From Labrys monachus (GTDB lineage Bacteria; Pseudomonadota; Alphaproteobacteria; Rhizobiales; Labraceae), in the NCBI RefSeq assembly GCF_030814655.1, contig NZ_JAUSVK010000001.1:2375501-2439500 (forward strand): DNA of 64,000 nt, written 5' to 3'. A program made the translations under genes and the position numbers. The notes beneath the pieces were generated by a model. The model did no database searches. It saw only the letters and a list, made by a program, of their open reading frames with translations, and had not been told where the DNA came from. Below, piece after piece: positions 1 to 40,944 of the stretch (positions within the stretch are counted from its first letter, which is position 1; every line of letters starts with the position of its first letter).

Positions 1-1488
1 GGCGCCATCCTGGTCGGGAAGACCAATCTCGACCAGTTCGCGACCGGGCTCGTCGGCGTGCGCACGCCCTATCCGGTGCCGCGCAACAGCTTCGATCCGG
101 ACCTGGTGCCGGGCGGGTCGAGTTCGGGCTCCGCGGTGGCGGTGGCGCGCGGCATCGTCAGCTTCGCGCTCGGCACCGACACCGCCGGCTCGGGGCGCGT
201 GCCCGCCGGCCTCAACAACATCGTCGGCATCAAGCCGAGCCTCGGCGCCATCCCGGTCCACGGCGTGGTGCCGGCCTGCAAGAGCCTTGACTGCGTGTCG
301 GTTTTCGCCCTGACCGTGGAGGACGGCTGGGCCGCGTACAAGGCGATGGCGGGCCCGGACGAACGCGATCCCTGGTCGCGCCGCATCGCCCTCGGCGAGC
401 CGGCGGTCCTGCCGCCGCGCATGGCCGTCGCGGTGCCGGACGCCCGCGGCCGCATCTTCTTCGGCGACGCCGCCGCGCAGAAGGCCTTCGACGCTTCGCT
501 CGACCTGCTCGCCTCGATGGGCCTGCACCTCGTCGAGACCGATCTCGGCCCCTTCTTCGACGTGGCGCGGCTTCTCTATGAAGGCGCCTGGGTCGCCGAG
601 CGCTATGCCGCCATCCGCCCCTTCATCGAGGCCTCCCCCGAGGCGCTCCTGCCGGTGACGCGGCAGATCATCGGCGGCGCCACCCGCCATTCCGCCGCCG
701 ATGCCTTCGCCGGACTGTACCGGCTGGCCGAACTCAGGCAGGTGACCGAGAAGCTCTGGACCCGGGTGCAGGCGCTGGCGGTGCCGACGCTGCCGAGGCC
801 CTATTCGCGGGCGGATCTCGATGCGGATCCGATCGGGCCGAACAGCAAGTCCGGCTTGTATACAAATTTCGTCAATCTGCTTAATTTATGTGCAGTTGCG
901 AGTCCGGGGCCGTTCCGCTTCGACGGATTGCCGGCGGGCGTCACCTTCATCGCCCCGGCCGGGCGGGATGCTCTTGCGGCGGCACTCGCCGCCCGCTTCC
1001 ACCGGGCGGCCGACGTGCCGCTCGGCGCGACGGACGTGCCGCAGCCTCTGGTGATCGACCGTCCGGTGCAGACCTCGCCCGGCGAGGTCGAGCTGGTCGT
1101 CGTCGGGGCGCACCTGTCCGGCATGGCGCTCAACCACGAATTGGTGGCGGCGGGCGGGCGCTTCCTGCGGGAGGCGAGGACGGCGTGCGACTACAGGCTC
1201 TTCGCCCTGCCGGGTCCGGCGCCGAAGCGCCCGGGCCTGCTGCGCGTCGGGGAAGGGGAGGGGGCCGCCATCGCCGTCGAGGTCTGGGCCCTGCCGGTCG
1301 AGGGCTTTGGCCGCTTCGTTTCGGCCGTTCCCTCGCCGCTGTGCATCGGCACCGTCCGTCTCGCCGACGGGACCGGCGCCAAGGGCTTCCTGTGCGAGAG
1401 CCGGGCGGTCGAGGGCGCGCTCGACATCTCGCCGCTGGGCGGCTGGCGAGCCTTCATGCAGAATGGCCTCGAGCCCGCCGGGACCTGA
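1..1488 (+). CDS. atzF: allophanate hydrolase, 3' part (5' end outside window)
   Basis: Hydrolyses allophanate to CO2 and ammonia, the last step of biuret, cyanuric acid and ATP-dependent urea breakdown. The frame is open from base 1 (GAILVGKTNLDQF...), so the start lies upstream. The amidase-signature glycine/serine motif GGSSSGSA is encoded near 112-135, with the downstream serine segment TDTAGSGR. The last ~130 residues (VELVVVGAHLSGMALNHEL through SPLGGWRAFM) match the separate C-terminal domain found in allophanate hydrolases and not in other amidases. Full-length family members are about 600 residues, so roughly 100 are missing. It lies 35 bp before a GntR gene and upstream of biuH, which makes its substrate. 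The stretch ~851-900 uses AT-rich codons unlike the rest of the gene. Confidence 0.92.
   Translation, partial: GAILVGKTNLDQFATGLVGVRTPYPVPRNSFDPDLVPGGSSSGSAVAVARGIVSFALGTDTAGSGRVPAGLNNIVGIKPSLGAIPVHGVVPACKSLDCVSVFALTVEDGWAAYKAMAGPDERDPWSRRIALGEPAVLPPRMAVAVPDARGRIFFGDAAAQKAFDASLDLLASMGLHLVETDLGPFFDVARLLYEGAWVAERYAAIRPFIEASPEALLPVTRQIIGGATRHSAADAFAGLYRLAELRQVTEKLWTRVQALAVPTLPRPYSRADLDADPIGPNSKSGLYTNFVNLLNLCAVASPGPFRFDGLPAGVTFIAPAGRDALAAALAARFHRAADVPLGATDVPQPLVIDRPVQTSPGEVELVVVGAHLSGMALNHELVAAGGRFLREARTACDYRLFALPGPAPKRPGLLRVGEGEGAAIAVEVWALPVEGFGRFVSAVPSPLCIGTVRLADGTGAKGFLCESRAVEGALDISPLGGWRAFMQNGLEPAGT
856..865. promoter_or_regulatory. perfect palindrome TTGTATACAA inside atzF
   Basis: A perfect 10-bp palindrome sits inside an unusually AT-rich coding patch. 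FCD-type GntR regulators often bind short TTG...CAA palindromes, and a near copy (TTGCATACAA) occurs downstream of the adjacent gntR gene. It may be an intragenic operator. It also encodes part of the conserved LYTNF segment, so coincidence is possible. Confidence 0.3.
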
Positions 1489-1523
1489 TATCCTGCCGCG
1501 CTCGGCATGTGAAAGGCGTTGTC

Positions 1524-2189
1524 TTGACGAAACTGACCAAGGCCCAAACGATGGTTCAGGCCATCGCCGACGACATCGTGCACGGACGGCTCGCGCCCGG
1601 GGTCGCGCTCGACGAGACCGCGCTCGCTGCCGCCTACGGGGTGTCCCGCACGCCGACGCGCGAGGCCCTGCGCCAGCTCGAGGCGATCGGCCTCGTCGAG
1701 GCCCGGGCGCGGCGCGGCGCCGTGGTCGCCGACGTCACCGGCCGGCAGCTCGACGAGATGTTCGACGTCATGGCGGAGATCGAGGCCTGGTGCGCCCGCT
1801 GGTGCGCGGTCCGGATGACCGCCGCCGAGAGGCGGCATCTGCAGGAGATCCATGAGGCGAGCGGCGCTTTCGTCGCCGACGGCGACCGCGCCTCCTATAT
1901 CGAGGCCAACAACCAGTTCCACGAGGCCATCTACAAGGGCGCGCACAACGCGTTCCTGGCCGACATGGCCCTTTCCGTCCGCAAGCGCGTCCAGCCCTTC
2001 CGCCGCGCGCAGTTCGAAACCCTCGGCCGGCTCGCCAAGTCCCATTTCGAGCATGGCCGCGTCACGCTGGCGATCCAGCGGGGCGATGCGGAAGGCGCGG
2101 CGCGGGACATGCGCTCCCATATCGTCATCGTCCGCGACCAGGTCGACGTGGTCACGCGCACGCCCGAGGCCCGGCGCGTCAAACTGTAA
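1524..2189 (+). CDS. GntR family (FCD domain) transcriptional regulator
   Basis: A DNA-binding regulator of about 221 residues. The N-terminal winged helix has the GntR signature (DETALAAAYGVSRTPTREALRQLEAIGLV), followed by an all-helical FCD ligand domain with the helix motif NNQFHEAIYKGAHN and a later SHFEHGR histidine. A TTG start at 1524 is preferred because AAAGG lies about 8 bases upstream. GTG at 1509 and ATG at 1551 are in-frame alternatives. It sits between atzF and the ABC importer on the same strand and is the obvious local regulator, probably sensing a pathway intermediate such as biuret or allophanate. The effector is not known from sequence. Confidence 0.85.
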   Translation: MTKLTKAQTMVQAIADDIVHGRLAPGVALDETALAAAYGVSRTPTREALRQLEAIGLVEARARRGAVVADVTGRQLDEMFDVMAEIEAWCARWCAVRMTAAERRHLQEIHEASGAFVADGDRASYIEANNQFHEAIYKGAHNAFLADMALSVRKRVQPFRRAQFETLGRLAKSHFEHGRVTLAIQRGDAEGAARDMRSHIVIVRDQVDVVTRTPEARRVKL

Positions 2190-2226
2190 ATCTCGTCTGA
2201 TGCATTAATGAGCAGGAAGGCGCGTA

Positions 2227-2236
2227 TTGCATACAA
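2227..2236. promoter_or_regulatory. TTGCATACAA inverted repeat, candidate GntR operator
   Basis: TTG and CAA half-sites are separated by four bases in the gntR-importer intergenic region. The element resembles the perfect palindrome at 856-865 and suits a FCD-GntR binding site. Inferred only from pattern. Confidence 0.3.
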
Positions 2237-2290
2237 GAGGGCCACCGCTGGCGATAGAGCGCGACTCCGGCTCGATGGAGATCGAAGCTA

Positions 2291-2305
2291 TGTATTTGAA
2301 ATACA
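2291..2305. promoter_or_regulatory. TGTATTT-G-AAATACA inverted repeat, candidate operator
   Basis: A perfect 7-1-7 inverted repeat lies about 46 bases upstream of the -24 element of the putative sigma54 promoter. It could bind the neighbouring GntR regulator or an enhancer-type activator. It does not match the usual NtrC consensus. Confidence 0.4.
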
Positions 2306-2350
2306 GAAACTTTTAGATTCTTTCGTTCCGCCCTTCATTCCCTTCCAGGC

Positions 2351-2365
2351 TGGCACGAAGCTTGC
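2351..2365 (+). promoter_or_regulatory. sigma54 (RpoN) promoter, -24/-12
   Basis: TGGCACGAAGCTTGC has GG at 2352-2353 and GC at 2364-2365 with exactly ten bases between, the defining RpoN -24/-12 spacing, and matches the TGGCACG-N4-TTGC consensus closely. Transcription would begin near 2377, about 78 bases before the importer start codon. RpoN control fits a nitrogen-source uptake operon. Confidence 0.7.
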
Positions 2366-2454
2366 GTAAACCGATCCGACGACCAAACCGGCACTGTCGT
2401 GCCGCAGGCGGCCGGGCAAGTCTGAACAAACAAATGGCATAGGCGGAGTGGAAC

Positions 2455-3576
2455 ATGACGAACATATCGGGTGACCGGATTTCCAGGCGGCTCTTCCTGC
2501 AGGGTACGGCGGCGCTCGGCGGCGTGGCGCTGGGCGGACTGCCCTTCGGTGCGAGGGCGGCGGAAGACCTCACCATCGGCGTCGTCTATGTCGGCGCACG
2601 CGACGATTTCGGCTGGAACCAGGCGCATGCGGTGGCCGTGAAGGCGCTGCAGGGGGTCCCCGGCGTCAAGGTCGTCGAGGAAGAGAACGTCCCGGAGACC
2701 GATGCCGTCTCCAAGACCATGGAATCGATGATCAACCTCGACGGCGCGACGCTGATCCTGGCGACCTCCTTCGGCTATTACTCCCCCTTCGTCGTCGACA
2801 TGGCCCGCAAATATCCGGACGTGACCTTCCGCCACGCCGCGCCGCTGTGGGACAAGGACAAGGATCCCAAGAACGCCGGCAGCTATTTCGCCTTCCTCGA
2901 CCAGGCCCACTACATCGACGGCGTGGCGGCCGGCGCCACCTCGAAGTCGGGCAAGCTCGGCTTCGTCGCCGCCAAGCCGATCGGTATCGTGCTGCGCAAC
3001 ATCAATTCCTTCCTGACCGGGGCACGCACCGTCAATCCGGCGGCGACGGTGCAGGTGATCTTCACCGGCGACTGGTCCTTGCCGGTGCGCGAGGCCGAGG
3101 CCACCAACGCCCTCGTCGATGCGGGCTGCGACCTCATCACCTGCCATGTCGACGGCCCCAAGGTGGTGATCCAGACCGCCGAGGGACGCGGCGTCAAGAC
3201 CTGCGGCCACAATGCCTCGCAGGCGAGCCTGGCGCCCAAGGGCTTCGTCACCGGCGCGGAATACAAGTGGGAGACCATCTACAAGCAGTTCGCCGCCACC
3301 CTCGCCAAGGGCGAGGCGCTGCCCAACGTCACTTTCGGCGGCTACGACCTCGACATGGTGCAGAACACGCCGTTCGGAGCCGGGGCGGACGAGAAGACCA
3401 TCCAGGTCACCAACGCCGCGATCGCCGCCCTCAAGGCGAAGGCACCGATCTTCAAGGGCCCCATCAAGGACAACAAGGGCAATGTCGTCCTGCCCGAGGC
3501 CTCCTATGACAACATGGCGCCGGTCCTCAACGGCATGACCTATCTCGTCGACGGTGTGATCGGATCGGCCAGCTGA
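2455..3576 (+). CDS. BMP family ABC transporter substrate-binding protein
   Basis: Periplasmic binding component of an importer, 373 residues. The N-terminus has a twin-arginine signal (ISRRLFLQGTAALGG, ending near ARAAED), so export is probably by Tat. The mature part has the Bmp/PnrA fold start LTIGVVYVGARDDFGWNQAH. Family members bind nucleosides or other small nitrogenous solutes. Here the gene heads an operon with two permeases, an ATPase and two amidohydrolases, so biuret, triuret or a related urea oligomer is the more likely ligand. It lies directly downstream of the putative sigma54 promoter. Confidence 0.85.
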   Translation: MTNISGDRISRRLFLQGTAALGGVALGGLPFGARAAEDLTIGVVYVGARDDFGWNQAHAVAVKALQGVPGVKVVEEENVPETDAVSKTMESMINLDGATLILATSFGYYSPFVVDMARKYPDVTFRHAAPLWDKDKDPKNAGSYFAFLDQAHYIDGVAAGATSKSGKLGFVAAKPIGIVLRNINSFLTGARTVNPAATVQVIFTGDWSLPVREAEATNALVDAGCDLITCHVDGPKVVIQTAEGRGVKTCGHNASQASLAPKGFVTGAEYKWETIYKQFAATLAKGEALPNVTFGGYDLDMVQNTPFGAGADEKTIQVTNAAIAALKAKAPIFKGPIKDNKGNVVLPEASYDNMAPVLNGMTYLVDGVIGSAS

Positions 3577-3634
3577 GCTCGAAGGCCGGCGGGCCTTCCC
3601 CGCCGCTCCTCCTCCTTCGCGACAGGTGAGCCCG

Positions 3635-4741
3635 ATGAGCGATATCGCCAAAAGCCTTCCAGACAAGAACCGGACCGTGCCGTTTCGCGCCGATACGCTG
3701 TCGCGCCTGCGCGTCAGCGCCGAATATGTCGCGATTCCCCTGCTGGCGCTGCTGTGCGCCTTCATCCTGTTCTCCGCCTTCCTCCTCCTGATCGGCAAGT
3801 CTCCGCTGACGTTCGTCGAACTCCTGTGGACGGGCGGATACGGGACGGCCTTCTCGTGGCGGAACACGCTGCAGCGCGCCTCGCCCCTGATCCTCACGGC
3901 GCTGGCGGTCGCCATTCCCGCCCGCCTCGGCCTGGTGATGATCGGCGGCGAGGGGGCGCTCGTCCTGTCCGGCTTCGTGGCTGCGGCGATCGCCGTCCCC
4001 TTCGTGGGCAGCGGCCTCACCGCCTGGATCGTCATGCCCCTGATGGTCCTGGCGGCGGGCCTGACCGGCGCGCTCTGGCTCGGCCTCGCCGGCTATCTGC
4101 GCTACCGGCGCGGCGTCAACGAGACCATCGCCTCGCTGCTGCTGTCCTATATCGCCATCGCCATCATGAACTTCTTCGTCGAGGGCGTCCTGCGCGACCC
4201 GGCCCAGCCCAACAAGGCCTCGACGCTGCCGATCGGCGAGGCCTACAAGGTCGGCCTCATCCCGGATCTCGGCGTGCATTGGGGCATCGTCTGCGGCGTC
4301 GTGCTGGCGGTCGCGCTCTACATCCTGATGGCGCGCACGACCTTCGGCTTCGCCGCCCGCATCACCGGCGGCAATCTCAGGGCGGCTTTGGCGCAGGGCC
4401 TGCCCGTCGGCCGCCTGATCCTCGCCTCCTGCATGATCGCGGGCGCCTGCGCCGGCCTCGCCGGCTATTTCGAGGTGGCGGCGATCCAGGGCCGGGCCAA
4501 CGCCTCGCTCGCCGCCGGCTACGGCTTCACCGGCATCCTCGTATCCTTCCTCGCCCGCCACAATCCGATCGCCATCGTCCCCGTCGCCATCCTGTTCGGC
4601 GGCCTGGCGGCGGCGGGCGGGCTTATCCAGCGCCGCATGGGCATGCCCGACGCGACGATCCTGGTGCTGCAGGGCTTCATCTTCGTCGTCCTGCTGACGT
4701 CGGAGACGCTCTACGGCCATTTCAAGCTCTTCAAGCCGTGA
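3635..4741 (+). CDS. ABC transporter permease (BMP/nucleoside type, subunit 1)
   Basis: Integral membrane subunit of about 368 residues. Hydrophobic segments start at VAIPLLALLCAFILFSAFLLL, and the central segment RLGLVMIGGEGALVLSGF carries the (N/M)IGGEG-like motif of BPD_transp_2 permeases. The cytoplasmic loop RRGVNETIASLLLSYIA is also typical. ATG 3635 is preferred over the upstream GTG 3626 because AGGTGAG lies just before it. It follows the binding protein by about 58 bases and is followed after 7 bases by the second permease. Confidence 0.85.
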   Translation: MSDIAKSLPDKNRTVPFRADTLSRLRVSAEYVAIPLLALLCAFILFSAFLLLIGKSPLTFVELLWTGGYGTAFSWRNTLQRASPLILTALAVAIPARLGLVMIGGEGALVLSGFVAAAIAVPFVGSGLTAWIVMPLMVLAAGLTGALWLGLAGYLRYRRGVNETIASLLLSYIAIAIMNFFVEGVLRDPAQPNKASTLPIGEAYKVGLIPDLGVHWGIVCGVVLAVALYILMARTTFGFAARITGGNLRAALAQGLPVGRLILASCMIAGACAGLAGYFEVAAIQGRANASLAAGYGFTGILVSFLARHNPIAIVPVAILFGGLAAAGGLIQRRMGMPDATILVLQGFIFVVLLTSETLYGHFKLFKP

Positions 4742-4748
4742 GGATGCG

Positions 4749-5663
4749 ATGAACGATCCCCTCTTGACGGTCCTCATCGCCATGCTCGGCGGCGCGATCC
4801 GGGTCTCCACGCCCTTCATGTTCGTCGCGCTCGGCGAATGCCTGACGGAAAAGTCCGGCCGCATCAATCTCGGGCTCGAAGGCACGCTGGTGCTTGGGGC
4901 GATGGTCGGCTACGCGGTCTGCTACCAGAGCGGATCGCCCTGGCTCGGCGTGCTCGCCGCCGGCTGCGCCGGCACGCTGCTCGGCGGCCTGCACGGCTAT
5001 CTGTGCAAGCTGCCCAAGGTGAACGACATCGCCATCGGCATCGCCATGATGTCGCTCGGCACCGGCCTCGCCTTCTTCTTCGGCAAGGCCTACATCCAGC
5101 CGGAAGCGGCGCATCTGCCCTCGGTGCCGCTCGGCGCCTGGCTGGAGAACAAGCAGCTCGCCGTCGCGCTCGACGTCAACCCGCTCTTCTTCGTCGGCAT
5201 CGCCGTCGCGCTGGCGATGGCCTGGGCGCTGCGCAACACCCGCTGGGGCCTGATCGTCCGCATGACCGGCGACAGCGCCGCGGCGGCGCGCGCCATGGGC
5301 ATCTCCGTCGATCTCGTGCGCTTCCTCGCCACCGCGGCAGGGGGCTTCCTCGCCGGCGTCGGCGGCTCCTTCCTGTCGCTCTATTACCCGGGATCCTGGA
5401 ACGAGGGCCTGTCGTCGGGGCAGGGCCTGATGGCCGTGGCGCTGGTGATCTTCGCGCGCTGGGATCCGGTGCGCTGCTTCCTGGCGGCCCTGCTGTTCGG
5501 CGCCGCCGGCGCCCTCGGCCCGGCGCTGCAATCGGTCGGCGTCACCCAGGGCTACTATCTCTTCAACGCCGCTCCCTACATCCTCACCCTCCTCATCATG
5601 ATCGCCTCCTCCAATTCCAGCCGGTCGCTCGCGGCGCCGGGCGAATTGTCGATAACCAAGTGA
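4749..5663 (+). CDS. ABC transporter permease (BMP/nucleoside type, subunit 2)
   Basis: Second membrane subunit of the importer, 304 residues. It has the conserved start-of-channel motif [19 protein letters not shown] (the NLGLEG motif of this permease family), the loop [20 protein letters not shown] and several further hydrophobic helices. It is shorter than its partner, as usual for the YufQ/NupC-like member of a YufP/YufQ pair. It ends 7 bases before biuH, which indicates one transcript. Confidence 0.85.
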
Positions 5664-5670
5664 GAACGCC

Positions 5671-6363
5671 ATGAACGCGCATGCCACGACCGTCATCGCC
5701 GCCGAGCCCTATCCCTGGCCGTATAACGGCAAGCTCAGGCCGGACAACACGGCGCTCATCATCATCGACATGCAGACGGATTTCTGCGGCAAGGGCGGCT
5801 ATGTCGACGCGATGGGCTACGACCTCAGCCTCACCCGCGCGCCGATCGAGCCGATCGGGAACCTGCTCGCGGCGCTGCGGCCGCGCGGCTACACCATCAT
5901 CCACACGCGCGAGGGCCACCGGCCCGATCTCGCCGACCTGCCGGCGAACAAGCGCTGGCGCTCGCAGCGCATCGGTGCCGGCATCGGCGATCCCGGCCCG
6001 TGCGGGCGCATCCTCGTGCGCGGCGAGCCGGGCTGGGACATCATCGAGGAACTCGCCCCCCTCGAAGGCGAGGTGATCATCGACAAGCCGGGCAAGGGGT
6101 CCTTCTGCGCCACCGACCTCGAACTCATCCTGCGCCTCAAGGGTATCGAGAACCTCGTCCTCACCGGCATCACCACCGATGTCTGCGTGCACACCACCAT
6201 GCGCGAAGCCAATGACCGCGGCTTCGAATGCCTCCTGCTGGAGGATTGCTGCGGCGCCACCGACCATCGCAACCATCTCGCCGCCCTCGAGATGATCAAG
6301 ATGCAGGGCGGCGTCTTCGGCGCGGTGGCCTCCTCGCCGCAATTCCTGGCGGGCCTGCCATGA
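5671..6363 (+). CDS. biuH: biuret amidohydrolase (isochorismatase-like cysteine hydrolase)
   Basis: Hydrolyses biuret to allophanate and ammonia. The 230-residue protein closely resembles the rhizobial BiuH as I recall it, including long identical stretches such as [20 protein letters not shown] and [15 protein letters not shown]. The triad is visible as Asp33 (IIIDMQTDF), Lys139 ([10 protein letters not shown]) and Cys172 ([18 protein letters not shown]), each three residues before the published positions 36/142/175. The cis-peptide region GITTDVC is intact. It sits between permease and ATPase genes, and its stop codon overlaps the ATPase start (ATGA). Its product is the substrate of AtzF encoded upstream. 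Confidence 0.9.
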
Positions 6364-7883
6364 CCGCGGCCGGCAAGCGCGCTATCGCGCTCTCCACGCG
6401 CGGCATGACCAAGATCTTCGGATCCTTCACCGCCCTCGACGATGTCTCCATCGACGTTCCGGCCGGGCAGTTCCACGTCCTTCTCGGCGAAAACGGCGCC
6501 GGCAAGTCGACCCTGGTCAAGTGCATCATGGGCTTCTACCAGCCCGACAAGGGATCGCTCCTCGTCGACGGCGTGCCGGTGACGGTGAGGAACCCGCGCG
6601 AGGCCCGCGCCCTCGGCATCGGCATGGTCTACCAGCATTTCACCCTGGTGCCGTCGCTGACGGCCGCCGAGAATTTGGTGATCAGCCGTGCCGACGCGCC
6701 CGCCGTGATCAACTGGCGCAAGGAGAAGGCCGATCTCGACGCCTTCATGGCGCGCATGCCGTTCCGGGTGCCGCTCGACACCCCCGTCGCCTCGCTGTCG
6801 GCCGGCGAGAAGCAGAAGCTCGAAATCCTCAAGCTGCTCTATCTCGACCAGCGCTTCCTCATTCTCGACGAGCCGACCTCGGTGCTCACGCCGGACGAGG
6901 CGGACGAGATCCTGGGGCTGCTGCGCGGCATGACGCAGCGCGGCGAACTCACCGTGCTGATGATCAGCCACAAATTCCGCGAGGTCATGGCCTTTGCCGA
7001 TGCGGTGACGGTGCTGCGCCGCGGCGCGCGCACCGGCGGCGGCGACGTCAAGGATCTCGATCCCGACCGCATGGCGCGGATGATGATCGGCGACACCAAG
7101 ATCCGCGAGCGCGCAGCGCGCCTCGCTCATGAGGACGGCCGCACGGTGCTCGATCTCGCCGGCCTCTTTGCCGACGACGAGCAGGGCCTGCCGGCCGTCA
7201 ACGGCGTCAGCCTCAAGGTCCGCGCCGGCGAGATCGTCGGCATCGCCGGCGTGTCGGGCAACGGCCAGGCGGCGCTCATCGAGGTTCTCGGCGGCCAAAG
7301 GCCGATGCGCGACGGCCGCATCTTCATCCGCGACAAGCCGTTCGAGCCGGTGCGGCGGGATTTCGACCGCTTCCGCGTCTTCGGCCTGCCGGAGGAGCCG
7401 CTGAAGAACGCCACGGTGCCCCGCATGTCGGTGGCCGAGAACATGGCGTTCCGCAGCTTCGACAAGGCGCCGATGGCCCGCTTCGGGTGGTGGCTGTCGC
7501 CCTCGCCGATGCGGGCCAGGGCGGCCGAGCTGATCGAGCGCTACAAGGTCAAGACCGTCTCCGCCGATTCCGCCATCGAGACGCTGTCCGGCGGCAATGT
7601 CCAGCGCGCCGTGCTCGCGCGCGAACTCTCGGGCGACGTCGACGTCCTCATCGTCGCCAATCCCTGCTTCGGTCTCGACTTCGCCTCCGTCGCCGAGATC
7701 CGCTCCCAGATCATGGACCAGCGCAACCGCGGTGCCGCGGTACTGCTGGTGTCGGAGGACCTCGACGAGATCCTCGAACTGGCGGACCGCGTCGCGGTGA
7801 TGTCGGAGGGCAGGATTTCCTACGTCGCACCGGTCGGCGAAACCGACCGCACCACCATCGGCCGCCACATGGCCGGGCATTGA
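6360..7883 (+). CDS. ABC transporter ATP-binding protein (nucleoside/BMP type, two ABC domains)
   Basis: Energises the importer. About 507 residues with two tandem ABC modules. The first has Walker [11 protein letters not shown]-loop [16 protein letters not shown], a signature of the form [10 protein letters not shown] and Walker [13 protein letters not shown]. The second has a degenerate Walker A (GVSGNGQAA) and signature [14 protein letters not shown], normal for the YufO/RbsA-like class. ATG 6360 overlaps the biuH stop, implying translational coupling. The stop is 7 bases before the second hydrolase. Confidence 0.88.
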
Positions 7884-7890
7884 GGACGCC

Positions 7891-8553
7891 ATGATCGAGA
7901 TCGAGGCCAGGCCTTATCCCTACGCCCTCCCGCCGGGCCGCACCGCCCTCGTCGTCATCGACATGCAGCGCGACTTCATCGAGCCCGGCGGCTTCGGTGA
8001 CGCGCTCGGCAACGACGTGACGCGGCTGGAAGCCATCATCCCGACCGTCGCCGGCCTCATCGCCCTGTTCCGCCGCAAGGGCTGGCCCGTCATCCACACC
8101 CGCGAAAGCCACGACCCGGATCTCGGCGACTGCCCGCCGGCCAAGAGGCTGCGCGGCGGCGGGACCCTGCGCATCGGTGATGCCGGGCCGATGGGCCGCA
8201 TCCTGGTGCGCGGCGAGCCGGGTAACGCCATCATCGACGCCTGCGCGCCCGTCGAGGGCGAGATCGTCGTCGACAAGCCGGGCAAGGGCATGTTCTGGCA
8301 TACGGACATCCATGCGAGGCTGGACGAACTCGGCATCACCCATCTGGTCTTCGCCGGCGTGACGACGGAAGTCTGCGTGCAGACCTCGATGCGCGAGGCC
8401 AACGACCGCGGCTTCGAATGCCTGCTGATCGAAGACGCGACCGAAAGCTATTTTCCGCAGTTCAAGGCCTCGGCCGTGGAGATGATCGTCGCCCAGGGCG
8501 CCATCGTCGGCTGGGCGACGCCGCTGGCCAAGCTCGAGGAGGCGGTGGGCTGA
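7891..8553 (+). CDS. isochorismatase-like amidohydrolase, candidate triuret hydrolase
   Basis: A second cysteine hydrolase of the BiuH superfamily, 220 residues. It has an intact triad: Asp24 ([14 protein letters not shown]), Lys129 ([11 protein letters not shown]) and Cys162 ([24 protein letters not shown]). It differs clearly from BiuH in the middle (no PANKRWRSQ segment, instead [12 protein letters not shown]), so the substrate probably differs. Triuret hydrolase (TrtA), which makes biuret via carboxybiuret, belongs to this superfamily and occurs with BiuH in other bacteria, so triuret is the leading guess. Another ureido compound such as guanylurea is an alternative. The hydrolase class is sure, the substrate is not. 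Confidence 0.75.
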
Positions 8554-40784: not shown

Positions 40785-40944
40785 AGCGACTTGGCCGTCA
40801 CGCGTTGAAGACAGGGGGATGCCGATCGAATTGACAGGCGAACTCGAGCGCCGGCCCGCGGTGGCACGAGGCTTGCATGGTCCGGATGTGCGGTTGTGCA
40901 TTGCCGCAGCGGTGGCTTAACTTTTAGATAACGCTCTCGTAATT

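Follow-up and report, generated by a model that had tools for sequence, protein, structure and literature searches.

A predicted sigma54 promoter with putative NtrC and GntR/FCD sites upstream of a candidate biuret and triuret utilization operon in Labrys monachus

The window, that is, the whole stretch of 64,000 nucleotides of Labrys monachus that we analysed, opens within an allophanate hydrolase gene, followed by a gene for a GntR/FCD regulator and by a run of genes for an ABC importer, a biuret amidohydrolase (BiuH) and a relative of the triuret hydrolase TrtA (Table 1). The TrtA-like protein keeps the catalytic residues and, at the positions reported to discriminate TrtA (PMC7948467), F35, N41, E160, Y187, Q202 and I205; position 134 is Met, not Ala. 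The cluster appears to encode the route from triuret through biuret and allophanate to ammonia, and we infer that the genes of the importer-BiuH-TrtA operon are co-transcribed. The first-pass annotation had named it a biuret importer operon. The presence of BiuH agrees with this name; the substrate is less firm, as the closest solved relatives of the binding protein are 3S99 and AtzT (6PI5), and for AtzT guanine or 2-hydroxyatrazine has been reported as bound ligand. Biuret is a possible substrate of the ABC system, and triuret or another ureide would be equally possible because the last gene resembles TrtA. In some related operons, an additional carbon-nitrogen hydrolase gene (PF00795) stands between permease 2 and BiuH (L078:9321-10337, L082:9280-10311, L088:9381-10397), and the congener G004 (L151) has a second binding-protein gene, 62% identical, elsewhere in its genome.

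Table 1. Genes and predicted regulatory elements at the left end of the window.
Feature	Coordinates	Strand	Remarks
Allophanate hydrolase	1..1488	+	TIGR02713, 627 bits; frame opens left of the window
Second putative GntR-type operator, TTGTATACAA	856..865		inside allophanate hydrolase gene; 9/12 in congener (L153)
Second NtrC-type box, TGCTTAATTTATGTGCA	878..894		inside allophanate hydrolase gene; 21.4 bits, strongest in 64 kb
GntR/FCD transcriptional regulator	1509..2189 (start 1509 or later)	+	PF00392 + PF07729
NtrC-type enhancer box (predicted), TGATGCATTAATGAGCA	2198..2214		153 bp before -24 element; 10.8 bits, glnB/glnK-trained matrix
Putative GntR/FCD-type operator, ATTGCATACAAG (other strand CTTGTATGCAAT)	2226..2237	-	11/12 to conserved element; centre 25.5 bp from NtrC box centre
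Predicted sigma54 promoter (-24/-12), TGGCACGAAGCTTGC	2351..2365	+	TGGCACG-AAGC-TTGC; predicted start ~2377
BMP/PnrA-like periplasmic binding protein, AtzT relative	2455..3576	+	PF02608; 3S99 1e-45, AtzT 6PI5 3.8e-43
ABC permease 1	3626..4741 (start 3626 or shortly after)	+	PF02653
ABC permease 2	4749..5663	+	PF02653
BiuH, biuret amidohydrolase	5671..6363	+	NF050097, 422 bits, cut-off 370
ABC ATPase, two ABC_tran stretches	6360..7883	+	PF00005
TrtA-like triuret hydrolase	7891..8553	+	333.7 bits to TrtA 6XIX, 200.1 to BiuH 6AZO

The gap of 265 bp downstream of the GntR gene, which ends at 2189, holds a plus-strand motif with GG at 2352-2353 and GC at 2364-2365, 10 bases between them, in a TGGCACG/TTGC context. 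This is the motif and the spacing that the first-pass annotation had read, and the distance to the binding-protein gene, which it gave as 90 bases, is 89 bases to the ATG at 2455, with no earlier start codon in frame. A site of at least 11/12 arose in 4 of 4000 dinucleotide shuffles of the gap. In the 6.92-Mb genome we counted 124 instances of TGGCACG-N4-TTGC, allowing one mismatch at most, and 119 of its reversed control. By itself the motif is thus unenriched genome-wide and proves little; its placement is enriched, and it is the comparison across loci that decides. By rough ORF calls, nine of the 16 exact matches are found 2-301 bp 5' of a correctly oriented ORF, three coincide with the beginning of the longest ORF of that kind, whose start is probably over-called, and four are intragenic. 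Downstream of the scanned exact matches there are several solute-binding proteins, a glutamine amidotransferase, an MSMEG_0572-type nitrogen-starvation protein and a phenol-hydroxylase-type oxygenase, and also lon and clpX, which are a misfit for a nitrogen regulon.

Some of these matches deserve mention in their own right. The exact consensus at the 5' ends of lon and clpX in this genome (L011, 3182447; L012, 3184187) stands in an unexpected setting. Another one (L007, 2062095) lies 28 bp 5' of the MSMEG_0572/Sll0783-type nitrogen-starvation response gene, with an upstream NtrC-type score of 7.7 bits. The only other exact consensus in the window, at 40862-40876, is 69 bp 5' of the glutamine amidotransferase gene (PRK06490), and its top upstream NtrC-type score is just 5.9 bits. 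Regarding other elements around the promoter, a scan for sigma70-like promoters or terminators at 1480-2460 found none, as did a scan for Rfam elements at 1400-3000. A perfect 15-bp palindrome, TGTATTTGAAATACA, seen by eye near 2292-2306, was discarded as probably due to chance, being unenriched in the other loci and not visible upstream in the congener.

For the comparison, we considered the best 80 of at least 577 relatives obtained in one scan of genome contigs. BiuH with at least 70% identity was found within the examined stretch of 67 of these 80 loci. A sigma54 box in the 200 bp preceding the orthologous gene reached at least 10/12 in 67 of the 80, 11/12 in 55 and 12/12 in 19, where shuffling leads one to expect 0.7, 0.06 and 0, respectively. 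The antisense control gave 0, the reversed motif 2, and eleven other offsets 0-2 of 74-80 loci each; in these counts, as in the NtrC and operator statistics presented below, relatedness among loci is incompletely corrected. A column analysis was carried out on the 68 loci, from the same best 80, with a site of at least 9/12 within 160 bp, the median distance from site to gene being 63 bp. The N4 spacer columns carry 0.02-0.47 bit and vary freely, against 1.15-2.0 bit for most fixed columns; the GG and GC columns are circular because the scan demanded these letters, and the remaining columns are not. In addition, the congener retains TGGCACG-N4-TTGC with a different spacer. This footprint supports the sigma54 reading of the first-pass annotation, and a sigma54 promoter at 2351-2365 is predicted with a confidence that, for a computation, comes close to certainty. 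The genome carries rpoN, with one PF04552 match of 220 bits.

Twelve of the best 80 loci have no sigma54 site, and seven of these twelve have a clear BiuH. Three of them (L054, L057 and L058) bear the names Rhodobacter, Roseivivax and Rhodobacteraceae, and in one an NtrC-type box of 12.3 bits persists. NtrC of Rhodobacterales has been reported to lack GAFTGA, and that of R. capsulatus to work with sigma70 (PMC10274813); the absence of the site in these three loci, few as they are, fits that report. In L094, L100, L103 and L110 neither a permease or ATPase relative nor a close BiuH was found. NtrC-type boxes are kept in L036, L062 and L090, and L065 and L069 show neither kind of site. Furthermore, in L061 and L068 the sigma54 site is present and there is no BiuH in 7.1 kb.

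As to the activator, the E. coli NtrC consensus, TGCAC-N7-GTGCA, has no occurrence in the whole genome and is unenriched in the homologous loci; it is thus the wrong yardstick for this clade and uninformative on this promoter. Of 27 glnB/glnK promoters in the same order, 18 are preceded by a conspicuous TGC-N11-GCA (3.5 in shuffles). A palindromic NtrC matrix was therefore made from 23 such promoters (31 PII loci, less three whose PII start was not recognised, one lacking a sigma54 site and four near-duplicates) and used to score the 260 bp preceding 69 promoters, namely those of the 68 loci and the window. Boxes of at least 8 bits were found before 60 of the 69 (6.2 in shuffles) and of at least 10 bits before 53 (2.2 in shuffles), and in the next 260 bp upstream the counts were 1/67 and 0/67. 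Letter-swapped matrices with the same AT/GC layout gave 2, 3, 7 and 11 of 69 at 8 bits, and the true matrix still gave 56/69 when the GntR operators were masked. The boxes are also placed regularly: 42 of the 50 that reach 10 bits start 81-180 bp before the -24 element, and a second box, present in 18 loci, is 28-30 bp from the first in 14 of them.

In the window, the score of the box at 2198-2214 is reached by 2.2% of shuffles (p 0.022). It is weak by itself, and the in-register box of the congener is weaker (5.6 bits), so the evidence for the window's NtrC box comes from the pattern across the family and from the box being in register with the operator described below. The genome encodes ntrC above the cut-off, and its protein has GAFTGA (L112). 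NtrC control of the promoter is likely, and NtrC itself would be the protein bound at the predicted box. The link to nitrogen limitation that the first-pass annotation drew is strengthened by the upstream boxes, found with a matrix derived from other genes, together with rpoN and a GAFTGA-bearing NtrC; the upstream NtrC-site scan that it proposed points to 2198-2214 with the clade matrix and to nothing with the E. coli consensus. A further NtrC-type box of 9.8 bits lies between promoter and gene at 2423-2439. In the congener a box of 8.7 bits is found at a closely similar distance, and the leaders of the 68 loci have none of at least 8 bits.

An unbiased dyad search, from which L078 was left out, retrieved TTGTATGCAAT, with at least 10/11 in 35 of 68 upstream regions (0.4 in shuffles) of loci from the best 80. 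In 24 of the 35 sequences with both elements, the centre of an operator like ATTGTATGCAAT is 24.5-26.5 bp away from that of the best NtrC box, to one side or the other, whereas random placement gave a mean of 0.93 and a maximum of 5 in 2000 trials. In some Kaistia-type loci the pairs came from two adjacent operators, one of them read as an NtrC box; the count was 29/39 unmasked, 24/35 with operators masked and 18/28 after dropping seven look-alike rows. The spacing is exactly 25.5 bp both in the window and in the congener copy (L150). The linkage of the operator to the GntR gene was evaluated in 36 of the 80 loci, 22 with the operator and 14 without. An orthologue of the window's GntR of at least 160 bits, a line set after the scores had been seen, was found in 21 of the 22 operator-bearing genomes against 2 of the 14 that lack the operator (Fisher 9e-7, relatedness uncorrected), and at E 1e-25 in 21/22 against 5/14. 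If contig numbers and records correspond, the orthologue lies by coordinates at most 4.5 kb from the end of the examined locus in 17 of 22, and inside the examined locus in L104. In L032 and L102 a GntR relative is encoded in the vicinity, yet no operator is seen upstream.

Operators of FCD-type GntR proteins of the TTGTA-TACAA kind are palindromic. The element found here resembles them in being palindromic and in its core, and differs in being held 24.5-26.5 bp from an NtrC-type box. B-DNA has about 10.5 bp per turn; 25.5 bp corresponds to 2.4 turns, which would place NtrC and GntR on nearly opposite faces and make co-binding seem likelier than simple exclusion. The role of GntR at this promoter is a supported guess; it may either repress or assist, probably in response to the substrate. 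In an order-wide scan, the composite of both elements had a match in 17 of 397 genomes, our own included, and the reversed control in none. Of the other 16, three matches precede a BMP orthologue and five are next to a GntR homologue of 42-47% identity; a TRAP-type binding-protein gene stands on the other side of that homologue in both of the two examined. Those beside the homologues are probably paralogue operators with a chance TGC-N11-GCA, and the scan is weaker support than its appearance suggests. In-register pairs also occur in two Rhizobium loci, L085 (near 4735, operator CTGCACACAAT) and L075 (near 227, TTGCACACAAT-like), at distances of 1.3 and 5.8 kb from the BMP gene, on its upstream side.

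A second pair of these elements is located inside the allophanate hydrolase gene, with the operator at 856-865 and the NtrC-type box at 878-894, 25.5 bp apart and in the same register as the promoter pair. The first-pass annotation had missed both this copy and the GntR-type operator. When at most two mismatches are allowed, the 6.92 Mb contain five occurrences of the composite pattern (one of the reversed control); the only perfect match is the intragenic pair and the only one with one mismatch is the promoter copy. The hydrolase unit has its own sigma54-like box, TGGCGCGCCGCTTGC, 394 bp to the left of the window, with TGGCGCGAGGCTTGC in the congener and TGGCGCGATGCTTGC in L032. No NtrC-type box of at least 7 bits was found in the 2.1 kb before TGGCGCGCCGCTTGC, and in L053 the unit has a conventional layout. 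The intragenic pair lies 1.28 kb 3' of the TGGCGCGCCGCTTGC box and 1.47 kb 5' of 2351, and may serve the hydrolase promoter, the importer promoter, both or neither.

The embedded pair may act as an enhancer, a reading that has to be weighed against a coincidence of codon choice in a conserved YTNFVNLLxLCA stretch, which we regard as rather unlikely for this pair. There is indeed no promoter close to 856-894, and only one other tested species has the pair: the congener G004 retains it (NtrC box of 14.2 bits, operator 9/12, 25.5 bp), and all of the 21 other, more distant allophanate hydrolase genes score below 0 bits at the corresponding place. However, the register is identical in both species, the pair is the sole perfect composite match in the genome, and GC3 falls to 4 of 14 codons in a gene with a mean of 0.90, the lowest 14-codon stretches elsewhere in the cluster genes having 9-11. 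The residue before YTNF is Leu here and Val in the congener, against Thr in 19 and Arg in 2 of the 21 others.

Regarding the promoter itself, other explanations were considered. A chance match without function at 2351-2365 hardly deserves consideration: near-matches are almost as numerous in the reversed control as in the genome (119 and 124), but the footprint in 67 of the best 80 of at least 577 loci, against 0.7 in shuffles, and the congener's retention of TGGCACG-N4-TTGC around another spacer speak against it. It is improbable, though less so, that the promoter depends on sigma54 and is activated by an enhancer-binding protein other than NtrC, for instance NtrX or another relative. The genome has six full or AAA-domain-long matches to the NtrC model and the window's box is weak; on the other side, NtrC is by far the best of these matches, and the box conserved before 60 of 69 promoters is the same as that before glnB/glnK, of which NtrC is the textbook activator.

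A main switch by GntR, with sigma54 and NtrC in a minor role and mostly substrate-induced transcription from an unrecognised vegetative promoter, seems very improbable. GntR/FCD proteins usually act on ordinary promoters, and both the operator and the linked GntR gene are conserved in many loci; nevertheless, no sigma70-like site was detected at 1480-2460, and the sigma54 box is more widely conserved (68 loci) than the operator (about 40) among the best 80 of at least 577.

Comparison shows the predicted sigma54 box, the NtrC-type box, the putative operator and their spacing. Taken as a whole, the explanation that we consider very probable is that the importer-BiuH-TrtA operon has a functional sigma54 promoter at 2351-2365, driven by NtrC from 2198-2214, with the GntR/FCD protein as a second condition. 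Under nitrogen shortage, NtrB phosphorylates NtrC. The phosphorylated NtrC would then occupy 2198-2214, reach the RNA polymerase-sigma54 poised at 2351 through looping of the DNA and drive its opening, so that transcription would begin at about 2377. The GntR/FCD regulator, encoded just upstream, would sit on 2226-2237 in fixed register with NtrC, which it may help or hold, adding a second, probably substrate-dependent condition. A more far-reaching proposal, to which we give somewhat less than an even chance, is that NtrC together with a GntR/FCD protein that senses the substrate makes up a rigid composite enhancer (centres about 25.5 bp apart, with the operator to either side of the NtrC box), acting as a two-input gate, for nitrogen hunger and for substrate, on sigma54-dependent ureide scavenging. 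Its second copy, in the allophanate hydrolase coding sequence, would be kept despite rare codons and an unusual residue, and would serve the gene's own promoter 1.28 kb upstream, the importer promoter 1.47 kb downstream, or both.

The general design is similar to that of the atz operons of Pseudomonas sp. ADP, which are reported to have sigma54 promoters, an AtzT-type ABC importer, a pathway-specific regulator and allophanate hydrolysis at the end (PMC6834077). There, atzRSTUVW and atzDGEHF are induced by nitrogen starvation from sigma54 promoters, and the regulator is AtzR, responsive to cyanuric acid (PMC6834077), in place of the GntR/FCD protein found here. Since such promoters are known for the atz operons, the promoter type described here is not new; what differs is the fixed-register composite and the embedded copy. 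The genes of Table 1 do not include AtzD, AtzG or AtzE, and BiuH and TrtA stand in their place. The atzR promoter has been described as devoid of NtrC upstream sites, unlike the biuret-operon promoters studied here, which have NtrC-type sites upstream. The promoter also resembles the glnB and glnK-amtB promoters of the same order in having a sigma54 box with TGC-N11-GCA boxes upstream, and differs in its -12 element, which is TTGC here and often xTGC or TTGA there. In that order, glnK sigma54 boxes (L144, L145, L148, L142 and others) are often TTGA or TTGT and those of glnB xTGC, and scans limited to TTGC would miss them.

The hydrolase set and the co-occurrence of BiuH and TrtA are shared with the BiuH/TrtA/AtzF operons reported for Herbaspirillum sp. 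BH-1 and Rhizobium leguminosarum 3841 (PMC7948467, PMC5806882); the accessible portions of both papers describe no control of the promoter or importer of these operons. Titles and abstract openings, with few subscription journals among them, mention no control of a BiuH operon by NtrC, RpoN or GntR; a 2019 Tassoulas thesis whose title includes "Regulation", cited in the 2020 paper, falls outside that scope. An ntrC mutant of Burkholderia cenocepacia was reported to grow better, not worse, on biuret (PMC5491218), which argues against the generality of NtrC control.

In conclusion, a motif seen by eye has become a testable control circuit for the use of triuret and biuret, a pathway relevant to urea-fertilizer impurities, and the NtrC matrix for this order finds sites that the E. 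coli consensus misses. If the fixed spacing between NtrC and GntR works as proposed, it would be a compact route to substrate control on a sigma54 promoter, and the embedded copy, if true, would be an enhancer selected within a protein-coding gene.
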